A stretch of 20,123 nt of DNA from a virus. The notes under the pieces were generated by a model. That model saw nothing but the letters and a program-made list of their open reading frames with translations, was not told where the DNA came from and did not search any database. A program made the translations under genes and the position numbers. Location: the IMG/VR virus record IMGVR_UViG_3300005513_000035, positions 1 to 20,123 of that record; one strand, 5' to 3'. Shown piece by piece: positions 1 to 17,329 of this stretch; position 1 is the stretch's first letter, and every line of letters starts with the position of its first letter.

Positions 1-49
1 TGACGCTCGGCGTCACATTGACGTCGATACTGGCGGGAATGGTGCTCAT
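1..49 (-). CDS. Start of a probable DUF3383/tail-sheath-like protein (partial)
   Basis: Sixteen codons are visible before the window edge, reading MSTIPASIDVNVTPSV. A CGGAG ribosome binding site lies 9 bases upstream of the ATG at 49, which supports a true start. It follows the neck terminator gene on the same strand, the place where related phages carry the DUF3383/tail-sheath-type protein. The short Ser-Thr-Ile-Pro N-terminus with a Val-rich strand resembles such proteins from memory. The family assignment is an inference from position and a very short stretch; that a gene starts here is much more certain. Confidence 0.6.
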   Translation of the reverse strand, partial: MSTIPASIDVNVTPSV

Positions 50-135: not shown

Positions 136-1077
136 TCAGCTTGCCGCCGCGGCGTCGACGACATTGACTTTCAGCGTGTCCGCGAACTGCTGCGGCACGG
201 TCACGGTTTCGTCGACCTGCAACTCGACGTCGACCAGCCAGCGATTTTCATACTGCTGCTCGCCATCACTTAGCGCGAGCTGGCGCGGCTCATCCGCGTA
301 GAGCGGTGCGATCGCGGACGAGAGCTCGGCGAACAGCGAGACCCCGTATTCATCGCGCAACAGCGTCGAGATGATCTGCGCGAAGTTGCCGCTGTTGGGC
401 CCGTACACATCGACCTGAACGGCCAGTTGTACGGATTCCGTGGTTTCCTTCGTGCCGGCTGCCATGGCCTCGGAAGCGACTTCCTGACTAGGCGAAACGA
501 AATAGGTGCCGGTCCCGCCGGTACCGGAACCGAAGGCCTGCAGCAGCGTGCCGACGGCAACCCCCACCCCGAAGATGCGGCCGCCTTGCGCAATTGCGCC
601 GGTTTTCAATTCCGTCACCGTCATCGCGTTGCCGTCGATTGAGGCGGTGAACGTCACGTCGGTCGGCGTGTCGACGTTCGTCGAGAGACGCGTCCGGCGA
701 AGCGGTGTCATGGTCACGTAATCCGAACCCACCGGCTCGGGAACGCGATTGTCCTGCGCCTGGATGACTTCGACGCCCGTCGTGAGCACGCGCGTGTCGT
801 CGGCTCCGCCGATCGTTTGCGCGATGCTGATCACATAGGTGCCGAGGCCCCCGGTTCCGGTACCGAACGCACTGATGTACGTGCCATAGGTCACGTCCTG
901 GCCGAGAACCGGATCCCCGAGGCTGATCGCCGCGCTGCCGTCGAGCATTGACGCCACGGTCAGCATGTTGCCGTCGATCGAACCGTTGAACTGCGCGCCG
1001 CCGGCCGGCAGCACGGCGAGCAGGAACGACCGAAGCGTCGCGAAGACGTCGGATTCGCTCGGGGAAATAGTGAACAT
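136..1077 (-). CDS. Phage neck terminator protein (gp12-like) carrying two inserted Gly-rich beta modules
   Basis: This 313-aa protein contains the conserved pieces of the gp12-like neck terminator (LIC_12616-type) family: an N-terminal helix (residues 1-25), a core strand with EVIQAQDNRVPEPVGSDY (about 103-120) and TPLRRTRL, and a C-terminal part with VDVYGPNSG (222-230), PLYADEPRQL and GEQQYENRW. The product is expected to close the neck or tail tube. The core is interrupted twice, at residues 29-92 and 142-206, by a Gly/Thr-rich module ending in GTGTGG(L/T)GTY, which also occurs twice in the cement protein. The ATG at 1077 overlaps the upstream stop as TGATG. An earlier in-frame start at 1155 would lie inside the neighbour and is rejected. 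Family from memory; module boundaries are by eye. Confidence 0.85.
   Translation of the reverse strand: MFTISPSESDVFATLRSFLLAVLPAGGAQFNGSIDGNMLTVASMLDGSAAISLGDPVLGQDVTYGTYISAFGTGTGGLGTYVISIAQTIGGADDTRVLTTGVEVIQAQDNRVPEPVGSDYVTMTPLRRTRLSTNVDTPTDVTFTASIDGNAMTVTELKTGAIAQGGRIFGVGVAVGTLLQAFGSGTGGTGTYFVSPSQEVASEAMAAGTKETTESVQLAVQVDVYGPNSGNFAQIISTLLRDEYGVSLFAELSSAIAPLYADEPRQLALSDGEQQYENRWLVDVELQVDETVTVPQQFADTLKVNVVDAAAAS
460..654 (-). repeat. Gly-rich beta module, copy B (neck terminator residues 142-206)
   Basis: This encodes FTASIDGNAMTVTELKTG, a middle section with GVGVAVGTLLQAF, then GSGTGGTGTYFVSPSQEVAS. It is the best match to the consensus SIDGN..LTV.....G...G..L.G.G...GT.I....G.GG.GTY.V...Q. 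The insertion separates two conserved parts of the neck terminator fold. Confidence 0.75.
802..993 (-). repeat. Gly-rich beta module, copy A (neck terminator residues 29-92)
   Basis: This segment encodes FNGSIDGNMLTV, then a Gly-Asp turn, then FGTGTGGLGTYVIS and a Gln-Thr-Ile end. It matches copies B, C and D in layout: short strand, 'LTV', G-x-x-x-G, 'GxGTGGxGTY', and a closing x-Q-x strand. At DNA level, bases around 834-872 are about 82% identical to 4340-4378 in copy D (7 mismatches in 39 by eye). Confidence 0.75.
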
Positions 1078-1460
1078 CAGGCCGCCTGATCTTGCAGCGT
1101 CACGGCGCACTTTGCCCAATCGGCCCATTGCTCGAGCACCAGCGCGACCAGCCACGTGCCGGCGTTCGGGCCCGTCGCGATCTTGATCAGATCCCCGCCC
1201 TGCCGGTTGATCCGCTTCACGCTGTCGATGGTGCCGTTCAGATAGATCGCGCGGCGGATGCCCTGGATGTTCAAGCCGTCCAGATGCACCATATCGTTGT
1301 ACTGAAGCGCCTGGACCTGAGCCCGAAACGGGAGGTTGTCGTATTTCGGGACGCGGTTGCCGTCGGCCCGGGTGTCATAGCCCGCGCTCACGCGCACGGT
1401 CGCCGCGATGTTCGGATTGACCGCGCGCGTCTGGCCGTTGGCGATGCCGCGCAGGTTCAT
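1077..1460 (-). CDS. Conserved phage neck-region protein, 127 aa
   Basis: The protein resembles an unnamed family found between gp10-like and gp12-like neck genes in related prophages: N-terminal LRGIANGQTRAVNPNI, a central LQYNDMVHLDGLNIQGIRRA, and a C-terminal GTWLVALVLEQWADWAKCAV strand. It is probably a small head-tail joining or tail completion component; the exact role is unknown. The ATG at 1460 is preferred over the GTG at 1463, because GAGGTG lies 5-6 bases before the ATG but only about 2-3 before the GTG. The ATG overlaps the upstream stop (TGATG), and the stop overlaps the next start in the same way, so translation is probably coupled. No signal peptide or membrane segment is seen. 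Confidence 0.8.
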   Translation of the reverse strand: MNLRGIANGQTRAVNPNIAATVRVSAGYDTRADGNRVPKYDNLPFRAQVQALQYNDMVHLDGLNIQGIRRAIYLNGTIDSVKRINRQGGDLIKIATGPNAGTWLVALVLEQWADWAKCAVTLQDQAA

Positions 1461-1993
1461 CACGTCACCTCGGAGCCGACCGAATTCTTCATGTGGCCGG
1501 TCCAGTCGAGCGGTTTGGTCGAGACGCCGCCATAGGACTCGCCGGCTGCCACGCGCCGCGCCGCCTCGCCGACATCCTTGCCGGTGATCTCCTCCGGATG
1601 GTTGCCGAACATCTTGCGCAGCATGAGCGTGACCGGGCTTAGCGGCGGCTGCGTCGTGTCGACGATCGACTGTTGCAGCTGCCCCTTTATGCCCTCGCCC
1701 ACGATTTCGAGCGTGGTCCGGACGTCATAGTTGTTCTGCGGCAGCAGTCCGCCAATTGCCGGCGCCCATTCGTCCGACTTCGATGCGATCATGTTGCGGA
1801 AGTACGGCCGCGGCGGAACGTTCGCCCTCGGCGCGCCGAATACCTGGATTGCCGCGACCATCGCAACAGAGGTGCCGTTCGGATAGGTCGCGCCCTCGAG
1901 GAAGCCGACGCGCAGCTTCCCGGGCTTGGCGACCTTTTGCGAGATCTCGCGCAAGGCCGCCTCGAGCTTATCGCCACCTTTCAACGCGGCCAT
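1460..1993 (-). CDS. HK97 gp10-like neck/tail completion protein
   Basis: A 177-aa protein with a predicted N-terminal helix (about residues 1-25) followed by KLRVGFLEGATYPNGTSVA and PPRPYFRNMI. These are features of HK97-gp10-like tail completion proteins (Gly-Phe-Leu-Glu strand and a Pro-Pro-Arg-Pro-[YF]-[FL]-Arg motif). A helical C-terminus with PPLSPVTLMLRK and TKPLDWTGHMKNSV agrees with that family. It would sit between portal/adaptor and tail. The ATG at 1993 has GGAGGGGG just upstream; the longer reading to 2023 adds an Arg-rich stretch that is out-of-frame coding of the neighbour. The start lies inside the DUF4054 gene by 13 bases. Confidence 0.82.
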   Translation of the reverse strand: MAALKGGDKLEAALREISQKVAKPGKLRVGFLEGATYPNGTSVAMVAAIQVFGAPRANVPPRPYFRNMIASKSDEWAPAIGGLLPQNNYDVRTTLEIVGEGIKGQLQQSIVDTTQPPLSPVTLMLRKMFGNHPEEITGKDVGEAARRVAAGESYGGVSTKPLDWTGHMKNSVGSEVT

Positions 1994-2442
1994 CGCCCGC
2001 CCCCTCCGACGCCGCCCCGCCATGGCCCGGCGCCGACGACGGGCTTCTTATTCGACAGGTAGCGCGCCCCCCGATAGGCCACGGTCGCGGCCCAATAGGC
2101 GCTGCCGTAACGCGTTTGCTGGAACCATTGCGCGGTGCCCGGCGGATAATCGTTCTGCGCCTGCACCGACACCGAACCTTCGGTGGCATTGCTGATGCGG
2201 CCGACCAGCGGCGGGGCCGGCTCACCGTCTGCCGACGGCGCATTGAGTGCGGCAATGTGCGCCGTCAGCATATTCATCAAGAGCAACTGCGTCGCCGCGT
2301 CCCGCACGGGCCCGGTGCCATCGTTGCGCAGATATAGCCCCGCCTCACCGAAATACGCTTGCGCGGTCGCAGGCTGGACCTGCGAGAATTCCGGATAACG
2401 CGCGATCCATTGCGCGTAGCTAAATTGAACGATGACACCCAT
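1981..2442 (-). CDS. DUF4054 family head-tail adaptor protein
   Basis: This 153-aa protein has the DUF4054 layout: FSYAQWIARYPEFSQV at the N-terminus, AQAYFGEAGLYL, a conserved LLLMNMLTAHIAALNAP helix, PLVGRISNATEGSVSV, and PGTAQWFQQTRYGSAYWAAT. DUF4054 proteins lie after the capsid gene in many phages and are regarded as head completion or head-tail connector proteins. The last 20 residues are Gly/Arg-rich and overlap the next gene start, so they may be a poorly conserved tail. It follows the 158-aa gene by 15 bases on the same strand. Confidence 0.88.
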   Translation of the reverse strand: MGVIVQFSYAQWIARYPEFSQVQPATAQAYFGEAGLYLRNDGTGPVRDAATQLLLMNMLTAHIAALNAPSADGEPAPPLVGRISNATEGSVSVQAQNDYPPGTAQWFQQTRYGSAYWAATVAYRGARYLSNKKPVVGAGPWRGGVGGGGRWPR

Positions 2443-2457
2443 GGGCCTGCTCCGCCT

Positions 2458-2934
2458 TCACCTGACGTCGGCCTTCCCGATCCCGATCTTGCCGGTGATC
2501 TGCTTGATGCGGCCGTCCGCATAGACGGTCTTGCCGTTCTGGATCGTTCTCTCCGGGTTCAGCGGCTCGAGGCCGGAAAGCACACCCTTTTGCTCTCTTG
2601 CCTGCCCGGTGACCATCGACTCCTTGGTGTTCGCAAAGATGAGGCCTGCTTTGACCGCCGGATGTTCTTTGTTCTGCTCCATCCATTCGTCAAAGAAATC
2701 CTTCGGCACGTTCGGCGTGAGCGCGTAGCCGCCGATGATCAGATAATCCCGGGCCTCGCCCTTCGGCACGGCAGAACCATGGATCTCGACCGTTTCGCCG
2801 ATTTGCTCGGCGCGCTTGATTTCCCGATATCCCGTCGGGGTGACCTCGCGGTCATCGATCATTTGAAAATTGCGCAGCAAGAGACCGTTCGGAAGCTTGC
2901 AAGCGACGGTAACGACACTGTTTTTCGTGGCCAT
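2458..2934 (-). CDS. Conserved hypothetical phage protein downstream of the capsid gene, 158 aa
   Basis: The protein has a beta-rich N-terminus (VVTVACKLPNGLLLRNF), a middle IIGGYALTPNVPKDFFDEWMEQ, and HPAVKAGLIFANTKESMVTGQAREQ followed by GLEPLNPER. I recognise this pattern from unnamed proteins that sit just after the DUF2184 capsid gene in related prophages; no function is established that I can name. The position suggests a head or head-tail joining component. No good Shine-Dalgarno sequence precedes the ATG at 2934, and the nearest GGAG is buried in a strong hairpin (2943-2973). Expression may therefore depend on coupling or on hairpin state. Confidence 0.75.
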   Translation of the reverse strand: MATKNSVVTVACKLPNGLLLRNFQMIDDREVTPTGYREIKRAEQIGETVEIHGSAVPKGEARDYLIIGGYALTPNVPKDFFDEWMEQNKEHPAVKAGLIFANTKESMVTGQAREQKGVLSGLEPLNPERTIQNGKTVYADGRIKQITGKIGIGKADVR

Positions 2935-2942
2935 GAATCACT

Positions 2943-2973
2943 AACGCGGAGACGGCTCGCGCCGCTCCGCGTT
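2943..2973 (-). terminator. Strong hairpin after the major capsid gene (attenuator-like)
   Basis: A perfect 9-bp stem (AACGCGGAG at 2943-2951, CTCCGCGTT at 2965-2973) with a 13-base loop that itself contains a CGGC/GCCG pair. It lies between the capsid gene stop and the next start. There is no T-run after it on the minus strand, so it may be a partial terminator or a processing/stability element that keeps capsid mRNA above downstream neck genes. Confidence 0.5.
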
Positions 2974-3014
2974 TCCCAAGGCTAGATTGTTGATGGAGGA
3001 AAACCCGGCGCCAA

Positions 3015-4133
3015 TCAGACGCCGAGCATGGAGACGAAAGCGACGGGCATACGGATGACCGCGCCCCAAGTGCCGCCGGTCAGCTTCTGCTTGAAGCTCG
3101 ACAGCCCTTTGATAATCGCATGAGAGCGCATCTTCTCATTGAAGGAGCAAGTGCCGGTTTCCTGGCCCTCGATACCCTCCGCGATCATCTGCACGAGGTT
3201 GCCACCGGCAACGCCCTGCGGATTGGCCGGCGATTTCACGCCGTACTGCACCGCAGTTTCGAAGCGGATGTTCGGGAAGTTCTTCTTCAGCATGTCCGTC
3301 ACGTTCACATTGAACGTGTTGGTCGCGGTCAATGCGACTTCTGTCGCCGGGTCCATCGCCACGACAACTTGAGCCTGCTTGTCGACCAGGCCGCCGGTCT
3401 GCTTGACCAGCTGATAAAACATCGCCTGGAAGTCGGCATAGATCTCGTTTGCAGTCGCGACGATCTGGCCGTTCTTGATCCACGCCACGCCGCCGGCCGC
3501 TTTCAGCGCCGGGGTGAGCGATGGCCCGAGATTCGGATCGTTCAGAAACCCGTAGTTCTCAAGGCCACGAATGCCGAAGAAATACGAGAGGTTCTGGAAC
3601 TTGTCCATGACGGTCGCGGCCGCCACGTCCAGCTCGGAGATCCAGTTGATCCGCGCCAGACCCGCACGCTCGAGCTCGCGCTCGCCGTATTCCTTGATGG
3701 TCTGGAACAGATATGACTGACGCTGCGGCCAGTTGGTGTTCGCGCCGGCGTGACCGTTCTCGGAGAAGTCGCCATAGCTGGAGACTTCGCCGGTGTGCTC
3801 GACCACCGGAAACAGCGCGGTATCGTCAAGCCAAGTGCCTTTCTTCGTCTCGCCGAGGATCTTCGTGGCATTGTTCGGGGCGAACAAGATTTTGAAGACC
3901 TTGGGGTCGATGAAGTTGGTCAGCTGGAACGGAACGGCCGAGTTCGGCGCCGTGGTCAGCGTCGGCTGGGCATCCGTGGCCATCTGGATCTCGGCCGCGG
4001 CGTCCATGGCCAGCTGATAGTTGTGGCCATAGCCGTCGGGGACGTACCCGATGACGTCGGGCAGAAAGATGCCCCGCTCGGCCAGATGAGCCTGATCGGC
4101 CCGCCAAACGGCAATTGCCTCTTGCAGATTCAT
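3015..4133 (-). CDS. Major capsid protein (DUF2184 family)
   Basis: This 372-aa protein resembles DUF2184 major capsid proteins with the HK97 fold. Visible family features are an N-terminal helix, PFQLTNFIDPKVFKILFAPN (about residues 68-87), a long segment with FSENGHAGANTNWPQRQSYL (about 123-142), EYGERELERAGLARINW, and a C-terminus with SSFKQKLTGGTWGAVI. It forms the icosahedral shell. It follows the cement protein and the DUF2213 protease, the standard order in such head modules. No N-terminal delta domain is seen, which fits a separate scaffold supplied by the protease gene. It is intact, with no frameshift or stop. Confidence 0.9.
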   Translation of the reverse strand: MNLQEAIAVWRADQAHLAERGIFLPDVIGYVPDGYGHNYQLAMDAAAEIQMATDAQPTLTTAPNSAVPFQLTNFIDPKVFKILFAPNNATKILGETKKGTWLDDTALFPVVEHTGEVSSYGDFSENGHAGANTNWPQRQSYLFQTIKEYGERELERAGLARINWISELDVAAATVMDKFQNLSYFFGIRGLENYGFLNDPNLGPSLTPALKAAGGVAWIKNGQIVATANEIYADFQAMFYQLVKQTGGLVDKQAQVVVAMDPATEVALTATNTFNVNVTDMLKKNFPNIRFETAVQYGVKSPANPQGVAGGNLVQMIAEGIEGQETGTCSFNEKMRSHAIIKGLSSFKQKLTGGTWGAVIRMPVAFVSMLGV

Positions 4134-4153
4134 GATTCTCTCACTCCGCTTGA

Positions 4154-4175
4154 TGCCGGTTTTTTCTGGCCGGCA
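4154..4175. other. Small hairpin upstream of the capsid gene
   Basis: A 6-bp inverted repeat, TGCCGG and CCGGCA, with a 10-base loop containing a T-run (plus strand) lies in the 77-base spacer between the cement and capsid genes. It may be an mRNA end-protecting or processing hairpin for the highly expressed capsid message. Evidence is only the symmetry and position. Confidence 0.3.
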
Positions 4176-4210
4176 AGACTGTTACGATGTTGGAGGGAAG
4201 CCTTCGGCGC

Positions 4211-5152
4211 TTAGCCGTAGGGCGTGGCGTCCATCTTCACGAGCTCACCAGGCGCGCCGGCCGATCGGGCGAAAAAGCTGGTTTCGATCGCGGTGCCGAC
4301 GGTGATCGTGCCGGACGCAAAGGTCTGCGTCGGATCGACCACATAGGTGCCGAGCCCACCGGCGCCGGTGATGAACGCGGTGATCGAGGTGCCGGCTGTG
4401 ATGCCGGCCGCCGTCAGCGCGTCGCCAACCGCAAGATGGCCAGAAGCGATCGCGGTGACGGTCAGCACGCCATAGGTCGCGTTGATCGCTTCCCCTTGGA
4501 CGTTCTGCTCGCCGATGTTCACGGCATAATCGCCGGTGCCGCCGGGAACGCCGTCCAGTTGCTCGACGATCTTGGTGCCGGCGGCAATGCCCGCGCCGCT
4601 GATCGTCGCGCCCGGGTAGAGCGTGCCGTTGGTGACGGCGCTGACGTTCAGGATGTTGTCGTTGATCGAGCCCGTGACCGCCGCAGTGGCCGCGGCGATC
4701 GCGCCCGTGACCGATGCGCTCGGCACGCTGCCGGACGGTGCAAACGACACGGTGCCGTCGGCGTAGCTTGCGAACGCCTTCATGCCCGGAAGCGCTTCGG
4801 TGTTGCCGTTGTTCCGCACCCAGAAGCCGGCGCGGGCCATCAGATGCACCTGGAAGCCCTGCGGAATGAGCATGCTCGATTCCTGCAGATAGCCGGTGAT
4901 GAGGCCTTGCTGATCGCGGTGGACGAAGCCAGCCGGCGAACCAGCACCGAAGTTGTTCGCGATCGCGGGCGCGTCGTTCGCGTCGACTTCCTCATAACTG
5001 AGCCATGCAAAGCGACCGACGATCAATCCGTTGTCGCCGGCGACCAGGCCACCGGGGCCAGCATCAACCGAGAAGCGCGGATTGGTGTTGCAGAAGTCGC
5101 CTTCAATGGCGGGCGCCGGCTGAGTGTTCACCACTCGCTGAAAACCGCTCAT
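4211..5152 (-). CDS. Structural cement protein (Gp24-like) with two Gly-rich beta modules
   Basis: The first ~140 residues of this 313-aa protein match the Gp24-type phage cement family: [20 protein letters not shown] at the start, GLIVGRFAW (42-50), [20 protein letters not shown] (75-94) and [14 protein letters not shown] (99-112). The cement protein binds the outside of the capsid lattice and stabilises it. Residues 157-223 and 224-285 are two tandem copies of the module also found in the neck terminator; after them the core resumes with [17 protein letters not shown]. The insertion point, a probable exposed loop, would display both modules on the capsid surface. AAAGGA lies 7 bases before the ATG. 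The family is from memory; surface display is an inference. Confidence 0.88.
4298..4483 (-). repeat. Gly-rich beta module, copy D (cement residues 224-285)
   Basis: Encodes [34 protein letters not shown], then [20 protein letters not shown]. It is the copy closest in DNA to copy A of the neck terminator around the GGLGTY turn, which suggests exchange or recent spread between the two genes. Confidence 0.75.
4484..4684 (-). repeat. Gly-rich beta module, copy C (cement residues 157-223)
   Basis: Encodes [36 protein letters not shown], then [20 protein letters not shown]. It keeps every landmark of the module, though the GTGTGG turn has become GVPGG and Thr-Tyr is replaced by Asp-Tyr. It is directly joined to copy D. 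Confidence 0.72.
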
Positions 5153-9273: not shown

Positions 9274-9548
9274 GGCTGTTTCCTTAGAGGGGTAAGCTCG
9301 TAGAAGCACGGATGTCGGCTGTTGGGGCTAAGCAGAAATCTTATACTTGATCAGAGCTTTACCGGCTGTTGCCCTAAGCCGATCCCCGTGAGCTCAGGCG
9401 CCGAGCATGTGATCCAACTGACAGAGATAAATTGCACAATCGGGTATCGTCGCGGGCGTGAAGATGCCCTGTTGTATTGCGTTGGTATGAAGAACCTCGA
9501 TTTTTCAGCAGCCCAGCTTCAAGTTCAGCCTACGAGGAGGGCTTCACC
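9274..9548. other. 275-bp divergent spacer upstream of the hydrolase
   Basis: No gene is seen. It separates the minus-strand coiled-coil gene from the plus-strand hydrolase and must hold their 5' signals. A direct repeat of CGGCTGTTG, each copy followed by a related CTAAGC, lies near 9316 and 9363. No confident promoter pair can be picked by eye. Confidence 0.4.
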
Positions 9549-10610
9549 ATGCCGATCGGAGACAACCTGCCGACCCAATCTGAGCGATCCTTTCTCGACC
9601 TTTTTGAGCCGCCGCCACAGTTGATTGAACCGGCCGTTCGCGCCTGCCGCTTATTCAACACGGCGCTGGATATCATTTTTTACGACGTACCGACATTGGC
9701 CGCTCAGCTCGCTGAAAAGGACGCGCCCATGCGAGCTCGCGAAGAGAAACCTCCTTCCCGCATCGTCCAGTTCGATGCACTCAGTGACCCTGAAGGCTCC
9801 CTTCTGCTCATCGACGCTAATACCGCGCCCTATGTGCACAGATATACTAATGTGGAGCGGTTCCTCACTTCACCTCACCCAGAAACGCGCACTGTCGAGA
9901 TTGTTACAATCACGGGGGTCGGAAGCTCGGCGCTCGGCAGCGGCGCGCTCGCGTGGGACATCTCGATCGCGCTAGGAAGATCCGTGCTTGCTATCGTTCC
10001 GGGATATGGCATGGCGGACGTCATTCTGCAGGCGCTCGGGGGCTGGTTCGGCTTCGGCCTCTACGACTATCTACATGCAAAGAGCCTAATCCAGAACGCT
10101 CTCGCGAATGCAGCGCCCCGGACAGCGAGCATCGGCCGCCAACTGCCCGCGTCCACGCCGGACGCGAGGACCCTTCACGGCGCGCCTGTCTTTCGCAACG
10201 GCTCCGGCTCCTCCGACGTGCTGCACGCCCTCCTCCTTCATCGCGAGGCGCCGTTCAAGCTTCTCGTTGGACACAGCAAGGGTGCCCTGCAGATCGGGAA
10301 TGCGATCAGGTCCCTTCCACCGAACCGAGCGCATGGACTCGACATCGTGACGCTGGGTTGCCCGATCTCGACGGACGTCAAAGGCGTCACCTACTACCAA
10401 TACCTTGGACTGTTCGACGCCCTGGGACAGCTCAACATGTGGGGACACTGGCCGGACCAATGGCTACCAACCTGGCACAGCACGAACCCCATGCTGCCAC
10501 CCGCAATGGCGGCGGGGAAAAGCACGGCTGACGCTCTGCGAGGCTCCTGGCATCGCGATTTCCTCGATCTCGCTTGCGAGCGCAGACGGCGTGATCGCAC
10601 GAAACAATGA
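9549..10610 (+). CDS. Alpha/beta-hydrolase-like protein (GHSKG), cargo gene in the head operon
   Basis: This 353-aa protein carries the nucleophile elbow LLVGHSKGALQIG, with Ser243 in Gly-His-Ser-Lys-Gly, followed by a helix and a strand (DIVTLGCPI), a typical lipase/esterase-like arrangement. An earlier block, ITGVGSSALGSGALAWDI and VPGYGMADVILQALGGWFGF (about 121-170), looks like a conserved oxyanion or lid region. His300 or His310 and Asp residues near the C-terminus are candidates for the rest of the triad. No signal peptide is seen, so it acts in the cytosol. The ATG at 9549 has GAGGAGG 7 bases upstream; a TTG at 9477 is rejected. It lies antisense to the surrounding phage genes. Substrate unknown. 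Confidence 0.75.
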   Translation: MPIGDNLPTQSERSFLDLFEPPPQLIEPAVRACRLFNTALDIIFYDVPTLAAQLAEKDAPMRAREEKPPSRIVQFDALSDPEGSLLLIDANTAPYVHRYTNVERFLTSPHPETRTVEIVTITGVGSSALGSGALAWDISIALGRSVLAIVPGYGMADVILQALGGWFGFGLYDYLHAKSLIQNALANAAPRTASIGRQLPASTPDARTLHGAPVFRNGSGSSDVLHALLLHREAPFKLLVGHSKGALQIGNAIRSLPPNRAHGLDIVTLGCPISTDVKGVTYYQYLGLFDALGQLNMWGHWPDQWLPTWHSTNPMLPPAMAAGKSTADALRGSWHRDFLDLACERRRRDRTKQ

Positions 10611-15959: not shown

Positions 15960-17075
15960 CTACGCGCCTTCGACATACCTGAAGCCTTGGATCGCTCGAA
16001 AGTGGCCGCCGAAGCCTGTTCCTTGCCAAGCACCGCGGCCGGATGACTTGAGGGTCGCTTGCGACCGAGCCTTGCTTTCCCCGTAAAGCCGCGCCGACAC
16101 CTGGGCCCATAACGGGTCGCGCCGCAGAGCTGCCGCAAGGCCGGGATGGCTGGTGTGGAATAACGTCAGCATGGGCCGCTCATATCGGTTCTGCCCCCTC
16201 CTCCACGCCGCGCAAACGGCGTTGAGAAAGCGCATGCCGACGCCGGCGCCTTGCCATTCCGGCATGACGACCAGGCGGCAAGCCCGCGCCTCGACGAAGC
16301 CCTGACGGGTCGAAAACGCGACATGGGCCACGGGCTCGTCATCGACAAACCCGACGTAGCATGTCGCGGCGATCATCTTCGGCGCTTTCAGATAGTGATG
16401 CGGCTCAAAATAGGGCCACCATCGCCAGTCGGTTTCGACGATCCGCAACCCGATTGGAGGACGTCGCTGAAGCCACCTCCCGGAAAAGCTGCCGGTTCGG
16501 GTGTCAAAGACCCAATCCGGCTGCAGCCAATCCAGAATGTCATAGTGGCAGGAAAGGACGACGACCTGGCCGCCGGTGCGGCGCCAAGCTTTCGCAAAAG
16601 CGTGCGCGCCAACCTTGGCGATCTGTCGATCGACCACGCTGGTGAACTCGTCCACCACCGCCCTGGCCGGCGCAGCGCACACGAGCCGGGCGAGATCGGC
16701 GCGAAATCGTTCCCCGGTCGAAAGCACCTGATAAGGCCTCAACCATGCCGGAACGGCGCCAAGCCCGACGGCAGAAAGTGCGCCCGTGACCTGGTCGAAG
16801 TCGGCGGCGGGCGCGATCGCGTCTATGATAGGCGCGTCAGCGGGCCAACCGTCGGCCGCCCAAAGCGCCTCGGCGCCGAAGAGCGCGCGGCCGATTGACG
16901 ATTTCCCGGAGCCGGATGGCCCGACAACCGCACCGATCTTCCAGTCGAGACCGTCGATGGGCAGGTCCGCCTCGAGGTGGAAGGACGAGCCGTCATCGAC
17001 ATTGAACAGCGACTTTACCCGAGCAGCGCGATAACTGGTCGCATCGGCGCACTGATGATGAACGTCAACCCTCAC
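15960..17075 (-). CDS. ABC-type ATPase fused to a GNAT acyltransferase (COG2401-like)
   Basis: This 371-aa protein has a complete ABC ATPase: Walker A VVGPSGSGKSS (50-60), signature LSTGE (118-122), Walker B AVVDEF (139-144) with Glu143, and switch His177 in LSCHYD. There is no membrane segment, so it is not a transporter. The second half is a GNAT domain: RLVVMPEWQGAGVGMRFL with the acyl-CoA loop Gln275-G-A-G-V-G, then FHTSHPGLAAALRRDPLW (306-323). The C-terminus ends GHFRAIQGFRY. COG2401 describes this fusion. The GTG at 17075 overlaps the 85-aa gene stop (GTGA) with GGTGGT about 6-8 bases upstream; the TTG at 17099 is rejected. The target is unknown; nucleic acid modification is an inference from phage GNAT enzymes such as Mu Mom. 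Confidence 0.82.
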   Translation of the reverse strand: MRVDVHHQCADATSYRAARVKSLFNVDDGSSFHLEADLPIDGLDWKIGAVVGPSGSGKSSIGRALFGAEALWAADGWPADAPIIDAIAPAADFDQVTGALSAVGLGAVPAWLRPYQVLSTGERFRADLARLVCAAPARAVVDEFTSVVDRQIAKVGAHAFAKAWRRTGGQVVVLSCHYDILDWLQPDWVFDTRTGSFSGRWLQRRPPIGLRIVETDWRWWPYFEPHHYLKAPKMIAATCYVGFVDDEPVAHVAFSTRQGFVEARACRLVVMPEWQGAGVGMRFLNAVCAAWRRGQNRYERPMLTLFHTSHPGLAAALRRDPLWAQVSARLYGESKARSQATLKSSGRGAWQGTGFGGHFRAIQGFRYVEGA

Positions 17076-17329
17076 GTCGTCACCACCCGAAGCTTGCAAT
17101 GCGTAAGCGTCTGCAATGCGTCGTAGAGCGACCGCTGAACCGCCGCGTTCGGGCAGATGACGATCAGCCCGTATTGCTCACGGTAACGATTGTCCGGAGG
17201 CCTGCGCGTCGAGTTCGGCGCGAGCGCCGGCAATTTTCTCTTTCGCTTTTGCGCCGCCTTAACGACGCGGGCGACTTCGGTCGGACGAAGTCCGGCCGGT
17301 GACTCGTGTTTGGGCATGAACTTTGGCAC
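17072..17329 (-). CDS. Small basic partner protein of the ABC-GNAT gene, 85 aa
   Basis: The N-terminal part is basic and includes GLRPTEVARVVKAAQKRKRK (about residues 14-33). The C-terminus, EQYGLIVICPNAAVQRSLYDAL (50-71) followed by LRVVTT, is a compact beta-alpha-beta unit. I recall a similar 'YG-hydrophobic-V-C-x-x-E-x-x-Q' segment in phage ParB-like and DNA-modification-associated proteins, but cannot name the family. The stop overlaps the ABC-GNAT start by 4 bases, so the two are translationally coupled and probably work together. The start is uncertain: GTG at 17329 has GGGA 6 bases upstream, while ATG at 17317 has no site. Confidence 0.72.
   Translation of the reverse strand: MPKFMPKHESPAGLRPTEVARVVKAAQKRKRKLPALAPNSTRRPPDNRYREQYGLIVICPNAAVQRSLYDALQTLTHCKLRVVTT

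Follow-up and report, generated by a model that had tools for sequence, protein, structure and literature searches.

The window analyzed here is a complete IMG/VR contig of 20,123 bases (IMGVR_UViG_3300005513_000035). According to Pfam and PHROG profile matches, its minus strand encodes, as one block, head and neck proteins of an XM1-like phage with a contractile tail: a terminase, a portal, a Mu F-like protein, a DUF2213 protein, a decoration protein, the major capsid protein, connectors, a head closure protein and a neck terminator. Two of these proteins, the neck terminator and the capsid decoration protein, each carry two copies of a Gly-rich module (Table 1). An earlier note, made from the letters of the window, had described these copies as a mobile cassette inserted into unrelated virion proteins and spreading by recombination within the genome. 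We found that a single autonomous domain of ~65 residues accounts for all four segments and recurs in many other virion proteins.

Table 1. Module copies, their carriers and the adjoining sheath gene (positions in the window)
Feature	Position	Strand	Remarks
Neck/tail terminator protein, 313 aa, two inserted modules	136..1077	-	PF23961; core = aa 1-27, 97-139, 210-313
Module copy A	~790-996	-	Neck terminator, site A, between LPAG and VEVIQAQDNRVPEP; 58.7 bits
Module copy B	~451-660	-	Neck terminator, site B, hairpin between RLSTNVDTPTD and ESVQLAVQVDVYG; 80.1 bits
XM1 gp53-like capsid decoration (cement) protein, 313 aa, two tandem modules near C-terminus	4211..5152	-	PF23982; phrog_2122
Module copy C	4475..4690	-	Decoration protein, first of tandem; 75.1 bits
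Module copy D	4292..4471	-	Decoration protein, second of tandem; 61.9 bits
Decoration protein remainder after insertion	4211..4291	-	Aligned to C-terminus of module-less homologs, including Klebsiella and other phages
Tail sheath gene, first codons only (MSTIPASIDVNVTPSV)	1..49	-	Truncated by contig left end

A search of the contig with a single copy as query returned exactly four places (E 1e-30 to 7e-6), located on the minus strand where the earlier note had put them. The same four were recovered with a profile built from module copies of other phages, from which the window itself and the closely related viral contigs L063, L094 and L256 had been excluded. The copies scored 58.7–80.1 bits, compared with a top score of 12.3 bits over 300 shuffles of the 195 open reading frames (ORFs) of the window. 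In the alignment, copy D lacks the first short strand segment (TGSI). The module is skewed in composition, with Gly, Ser and Thr making up 48.8% of its residues and charged residues 3.2% (vs. 24.6% across four further proteins encoded in the block). Such a skew could make low-complexity Gly/Thr-rich segments look alike by chance; however, shuffled ORFs stayed far below the copies, and an ordered pattern of Gly, Thr, Tyr and Gln (GTGGxGTYxxxxxQ) is conserved across carriers. We therefore rejected chance likeness, to which we assign a negligible probability.

No Pfam or NCBIfam model scored above its cut-off on the module, which lies inside the PHROG whole-protein families 38233 and 21413 only. 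When phage records were searched by tblastn with a single copy or the consensus, we obtained either nothing or two records only, and searches of those records needed whole carriers as queries. The string GTGTYTVS did not occur in the limited set of papers searched, nor did we find a description of the module family there.

The two carriers are unrelated, as the earlier note had held, and each scores far above the cut-off of its own family. The neck carrier matches PF23961 (Phage_tail_terminator_9; 74 bits, cut-off 27), NF047498 (62.5 bits, cut-off 28) and phrog_1876. Its AlphaFold2 model (mean predicted local distance difference test score of 88.6) has the terminator fold, with a VIA Z of 14.5 to the XM1 neck protein (7kjk_A5) and 16.8 to that of Sf14 (9c39_F), and its core aligns with the neck proteins of XM1, Sf14, Pa193 and E217. 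The decoration carrier matches PF23982 (XM1_gp53_minor_capsid) with 80.8 bits over residues 4–162 (cut-off 27); its model is poor before residue 110 but reliable for most of each module (block means 78–94).

By comparison with homologs, the module is a discrete protein-level insertion in both carriers, and module-less homologs mark the insertion points at the tips of beta-hairpins. Many neck homologs have no module at site A, where LPxG is joined directly to xEV (LPxG|VEV). Site B is empty, for example, in viral contig L303 (RLETNVHTYSDGYPSAPSTKSILEPTKVTVQLDVHG), whose hairpin tip TYSDGYPSAPSTKSI is replaced by the module. In the neck model, strands 135–159 and 190–225 each span the carrier hairpin and module B without interruption, a continuity that may explain why hairpin tips can accommodate the module. 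Using core-only queries, we recognized modules in 36 of 66 distinct neck terminators and not in the other 30, one of which (L319) holds a divergent module below the threshold. Divergent modules also occur in small proteins that probably have a signal peptide and whose genes directly precede the neck terminator gene (L060:3147-3806 and L111:858-1466); a longer member of the same cluster (L130) had no PHROG match.

In the decoration family, modules are present in 63 of 68 proteins recovered with core-only queries (mostly two per protein) and absent from five, one of them truncated by a contig end. At the border, ATVTGSV|ETKWFARS in the module-less homolog L386 (ATVTGSVETKWFARSVGAVGEKVKI) becomes ASVTGAIA in the window, followed by copies C and D and then the remainder of the protein. 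A first alignment had suggested a C-terminal add-on. We rejected this reading, since module-less relatives have a conserved ETxF...GELVK end after the insertion point, making the decoration modules internal. Ahead of the tandems in decoration and sheath proteins, in related loci and at positions 4655-4715 of the window, stands a degenerate, incomplete repeat of the first strand of the module, which may be left over from the recombination that brought the tandems there. Searches of phage records with the two carriers yielded 56 and 131 records, and among the carrier matches listed only the cores were covered; as exceptions, the module alone matched a Sinorhizobium phage tail fiber and an adaptor-like protein annotated as "portal." The carrier families thus do not need the module, as had been claimed earlier, and relatives with empty sites occur in both families among viral contigs, contrary to the possibility named in the earlier note that homologs in all related phages carry the segments.

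We scanned viral contigs with the four copies and with the carriers, and counted 717–724 module copies in ~420 ORFs, with 344 distinct module-bearing proteins. After masking the modules, the sequences formed 29 clusters, some of them contig-end fragments, leaving ~20 real carrier families where the earlier note had spoken of at least two. Carriers that could be named by PHROG or Pfam include the tail sheath (DUF3383), an SU10-like adaptor, head closure Hc3, Hc2/baseplate wedge, baseplate J, the head protein phrog_1912, the decoration-like phrog_3645, tail fibers and an esterase. The number of tandem modules per site ranges from one to three. One phage esterase-like protein (phrog_8480; L231:183-1751) has a single module near its N-terminus.

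Within XM1-like loci, the module was present in 146 of 159 decoration proteins, 101 of 155 neck terminators, 101 of 152 sheaths and 15 of 149 head closure proteins, and absent from all terminases (0/6), portals (0/38), Mu F-like proteins (0/84), DUF2213 proteins (0/28), capsid proteins (0/192), gene 2458 products (0/172), DUF4054 proteins (0/166) and neck-1 proteins (0/159); these loci were partly picked via module-bearing queries, which inflates the positive fractions and does not account for the zeros. Judging from these counts, the module is promiscuous and its placement is not random.

Outside tailed phages, three module copies (65–77 bits) were found in a bacterial protein of 6731 residues (G084:C1:7307669-7327861; L436, L437), alongside cadherin-like, VCBS and Big_9 repeats. 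The genome encoding it belongs to the same family as Bradyrhizobium STM 3843. Bacterial genomes otherwise rarely contain the module (2 of 120 within the family and 3 of 297 within the order), indicating that it is mainly viral. The best viral fold matches to the decoration model were collagen-repeat proteins of Indivirus ILV1 (BFVD A0A1V0SDM6 and A0A1V0SCQ2; E 2.9e-11, 31% identity). Indivirus is a giant virus of protists.

In the models, the same succession of strands is seen in all four copies, and one copy per carrier could be aligned to the same solved barrel, so the possibility raised in the earlier note that the segments adopt different folds found no support. Module B (neck, residues 139–209) aligned with the decoration protein of Arthrobacter phage Bridgette (PDB 8eci chain 1) with a Z of 7.2 (2.0 Å over 64 residues), and module C (decoration, residues 155–228) with a Z of 7.1 (2.1 Å over 66 residues); the two aligned independently to the same stretch at 23%–24% identity. 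Barrels of the EF-Tu domain II type gave Z values of about 5.6–7.2 (2.2–3.0 Å over ~70 residues, ~10% identity), and the insert of the Mystique tail tube, for which nothing was found in the literature searched, was a weak match to module B (Z 5.9), all values in a range (Z under 8) that may reflect only a common arrangement. Foldseek matches were weak to the Bridgette protein (E 0.11 and 0.19) and to EF-Tu and E1 barrels (E above 0.1). The Bridgette protein was also the top profile match among all PDB sequences, with a nonsignificant E of 0.28; the carrier profiles had no match among sequences of solved structures. Together, the models predict a small beta-barrel whose fold match to the Bridgette decoration protein and EF-Tu domain II is only suggestive.

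We then considered the history of the copies. The DNA likeness between copies A and D reported in the earlier note is real (32 of 39 bases, 82%). Random synonymous codons drawn with the phage's codon usage matched at 29 of 39 bases on average and reached 32 in 9% of draws (P 0.09), so this identity says nothing about recent DNA exchange. Across carrier families, module identity within one genome was 0.442 compared with 0.431 after permutation, a value reached by three of 500 permutations; the excess is detectable and tiny. The nearest neighbor of a module was mostly the same site in another genome, and site labels changed 55 times on the module tree compared with 116 times after shuffling (the tree is poorly resolved, with 68 columns and nine starred branches of 167, and was used for label clustering only). 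We therefore rejected recent DNA-level duplication within the genome. Of the earlier picture of a cassette spreading within the genome, the discrete protein-level cassette found in many virion proteins stands, and recent intragenomic recombination is not supported. First decoration modules were closer to first sheath modules (identity 0.52) than to their own tandem neighbors (0.44), and second decoration modules likewise to second sheath modules (0.48), suggesting that decoration protein and sheath probably exchanged a tandem pair as one block at least once. The ratio of nonsynonymous to synonymous substitution rates (dN/dS) was 0.17–0.55 for modules and 0.17–0.20 for cores, showing that purifying selection acts on the modules.

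The sheath gene is cut off at the left end of the contig. The sheaths of close relatives, in viral contig L094 and in a contig of Bradyrhizobium STM 3843 (G003:C205), carry one module, and a fifth copy is thus expected in the complete genome. The genome of Bradyrhizobium sp. STM 3843 contains a close relative of the phage, with a neck core 89% identical, and the decoration protein of viral contig L063 is 85% identical to that of the window; a Bradyrhizobium-like host is therefore likely, judging by these similarities. Elsewhere in the window, we noted an ORF upstream of the morphogenetic block that fuses an ABC/AAA-like ATPase part with a GNAT acetyltransferase part (15960-17099, minus strand), a putative phage metallopeptidase (17641-18306, minus strand; PF18894, E 6.6e-35) and a 377-residue ORF on the opposite strand (9477-10610, plus strand) that lies inside the block, flanked by the Mu F-like gene and the capsid genes, and has no Pfam match.

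These observations can be assembled into a model of how the module is placed and used. Its first and last strands would extend an antiparallel beta-hairpin of the carrier, as seen in the neck model and presumed for the other carriers, allowing insertion at hairpin tips without breaking the carrier fold. It would be placed mainly in outer proteins of the particle (the decoration trimer, neck terminator, head closure protein, sheath, adaptors, baseplate and fibers) and exposed there as a neutral knob rich in Gly, Thr and Ser, either alone or in tandems of one to three. In XM1, trimers of gp53 are located on the surface of the capsid (PMC10457771), and additional domains of sheath proteins point away from the tube (PMC9230969). 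We infer display outside the particle in the neck as well, because six or twelve barrels could hardly fit into the DNA channel. Each insertion may be old, the module then being inherited with its carrier under purifying selection while tandem number shifts. The function would be accessory surface adhesion or surface conditioning through weak multivalent contact with the host envelope or extracellular polymers, as hinted by the company of the three copies in the giant bacterial protein and by the fold matches in the Indivirus collagen-repeat proteins. On balance, we lean slightly toward this explanation, namely, that the module is an old, promiscuous surface-display barrel domain under purifying selection and a putative adhesion accessory like the phage Ig-like (immunoglobulin-like) domains. 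A wider proposal, which we put forward tentatively and hold with less confidence, is that this undescribed family is a general surface brick of tailed phages of several morphotypes, giant-virus fiber-like proteins and giant bacterial adhesins, by which virions would gain an adhesive, nearly uncharged coating at a number of unrelated sites simultaneously.

Several points weigh against an adhesive, outward-facing module. Co-occurrence with adhesin repeats and giant-virus proteins is guilt by association, and the scarcity of aromatic (Trp 0.1%, Tyr 2.4%) and charged (3.2%) residues is unlike typical carbohydrate-binding sites. That the modules of the neck terminator and head closure protein point outward is itself deduced, and a loop of XM1 gp4, a head completion protein, faces the DNA (PMC10457771). 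An HK97 capsid protein with a similar domain is named in BFVD, so that capsid proteins are not always spared. The modules might instead act as structural braces that touch neighboring subunits in capsid, neck and sheath and stabilize the particle, with no partner outside the virion. The identity of the carriers (cement, neck and sheath proteins) and purifying selection on the modules would fit such a role; the inserted domain 2 of the YSD1 tail tube stabilizes its ring (PMC8718954), and one of the roles hypothesized for additional sheath domains is stabilization (PMC9230969). However, the corresponding sites are empty in close relatives, a given site may hold one to three copies, and the domain also occurs in tail fibers, an esterase and a giant bacterial protein, with no interface common to them all. 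We consider the brace rather unlikely.

A tolerated passenger that spreads to permissive loops and persists there without benefit to the phage would account for the many unrelated carriers and the variable presence of the module. The dN/dS of the modules argues against this, as do the long retention of a particular module at a particular site and the scant sign of recent within-genome copying, making passenger status improbable. Even less probable, in our view, is that the module is an ordinary phage Ig-like domain unrecognized by sequence. The habits of distribution are the same (decoration, sheath and fiber proteins; tandems), but none of 20 diverse module copies had a Pfam Ig or Big match, and the structural neighbors among the matches listed were EF-Tu type barrels and the Bridgette decoration protein, a list in which the missing Ig entry does not exclude an Ig fold. 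If the surface-display explanation is true, one unnamed domain explains extra segments in ~20 virion protein families of uncultured phages. These segments confuse annotation, with parts of PHROG 38233 ("tail fiber") and PHROG 21413 matching the module in sheath, neck and decoration proteins. The module would then be a second, non-Ig promiscuous surface domain of virions and make it possible to test what phages gain from coating their particles with domains of this kind. The pairs of empty and filled sites in close relatives amount to a ready-made experiment.

Among known systems, one of the closest parallels is with the phage Ig-like domains, for which weak carbohydrate binding was proposed (Fraser et al. 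2006, J Mol Biol 359:496, as presented in PMC9230969 and PMC8718954). As described in these sources, they too are small beta domains found in unrelated virion proteins, often dispensable for the carrier, exterior, sometimes in tandem and horizontally exchanged. Like them, the module occurs in several unrelated virion proteins and is missing from some of their homologs. It differs in belonging to another sequence family with a predicted small barrel that has EF-Tu-domain-II-like matches, and in sitting inside hairpins, often two per protein, in the decoration, head closure, neck terminator and sheath proteins of one virion group.

The carbohydrate-binding modules of 936 lactococcal siphophages, with shown host binding (PMC6669499), are likewise bricks common to several particle proteins (neck, tail and Dit); our module has no match to them and almost no aromatic residues. 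The Bridgette decoration protein resembles one module per carrier in structure, but it is a whole small decoration protein rather than an inserted cassette, and homology is not proven. The insertion domain InD likewise adds a domain to a sheath of the XM1 type, within its N-terminal domain. It is similar to D3 of the flagellar cap protein FliD, and the authors describe it as unique to XM1 and report it from the sheath only (PMC10457771). RIFT-related domains of phage tail and neck proteins are barrels that recur across functional classes (Smug et al. 2023, PMC10684548); the passages of that paper on these domains make a broad fold-level statement and do not name the module's sequence family or insertion habit. 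Set beside these systems, the module appears as an undescribed family among promiscuous virion surface domains, distinct from the Ig-like ones in insertion style and probably also in fold.

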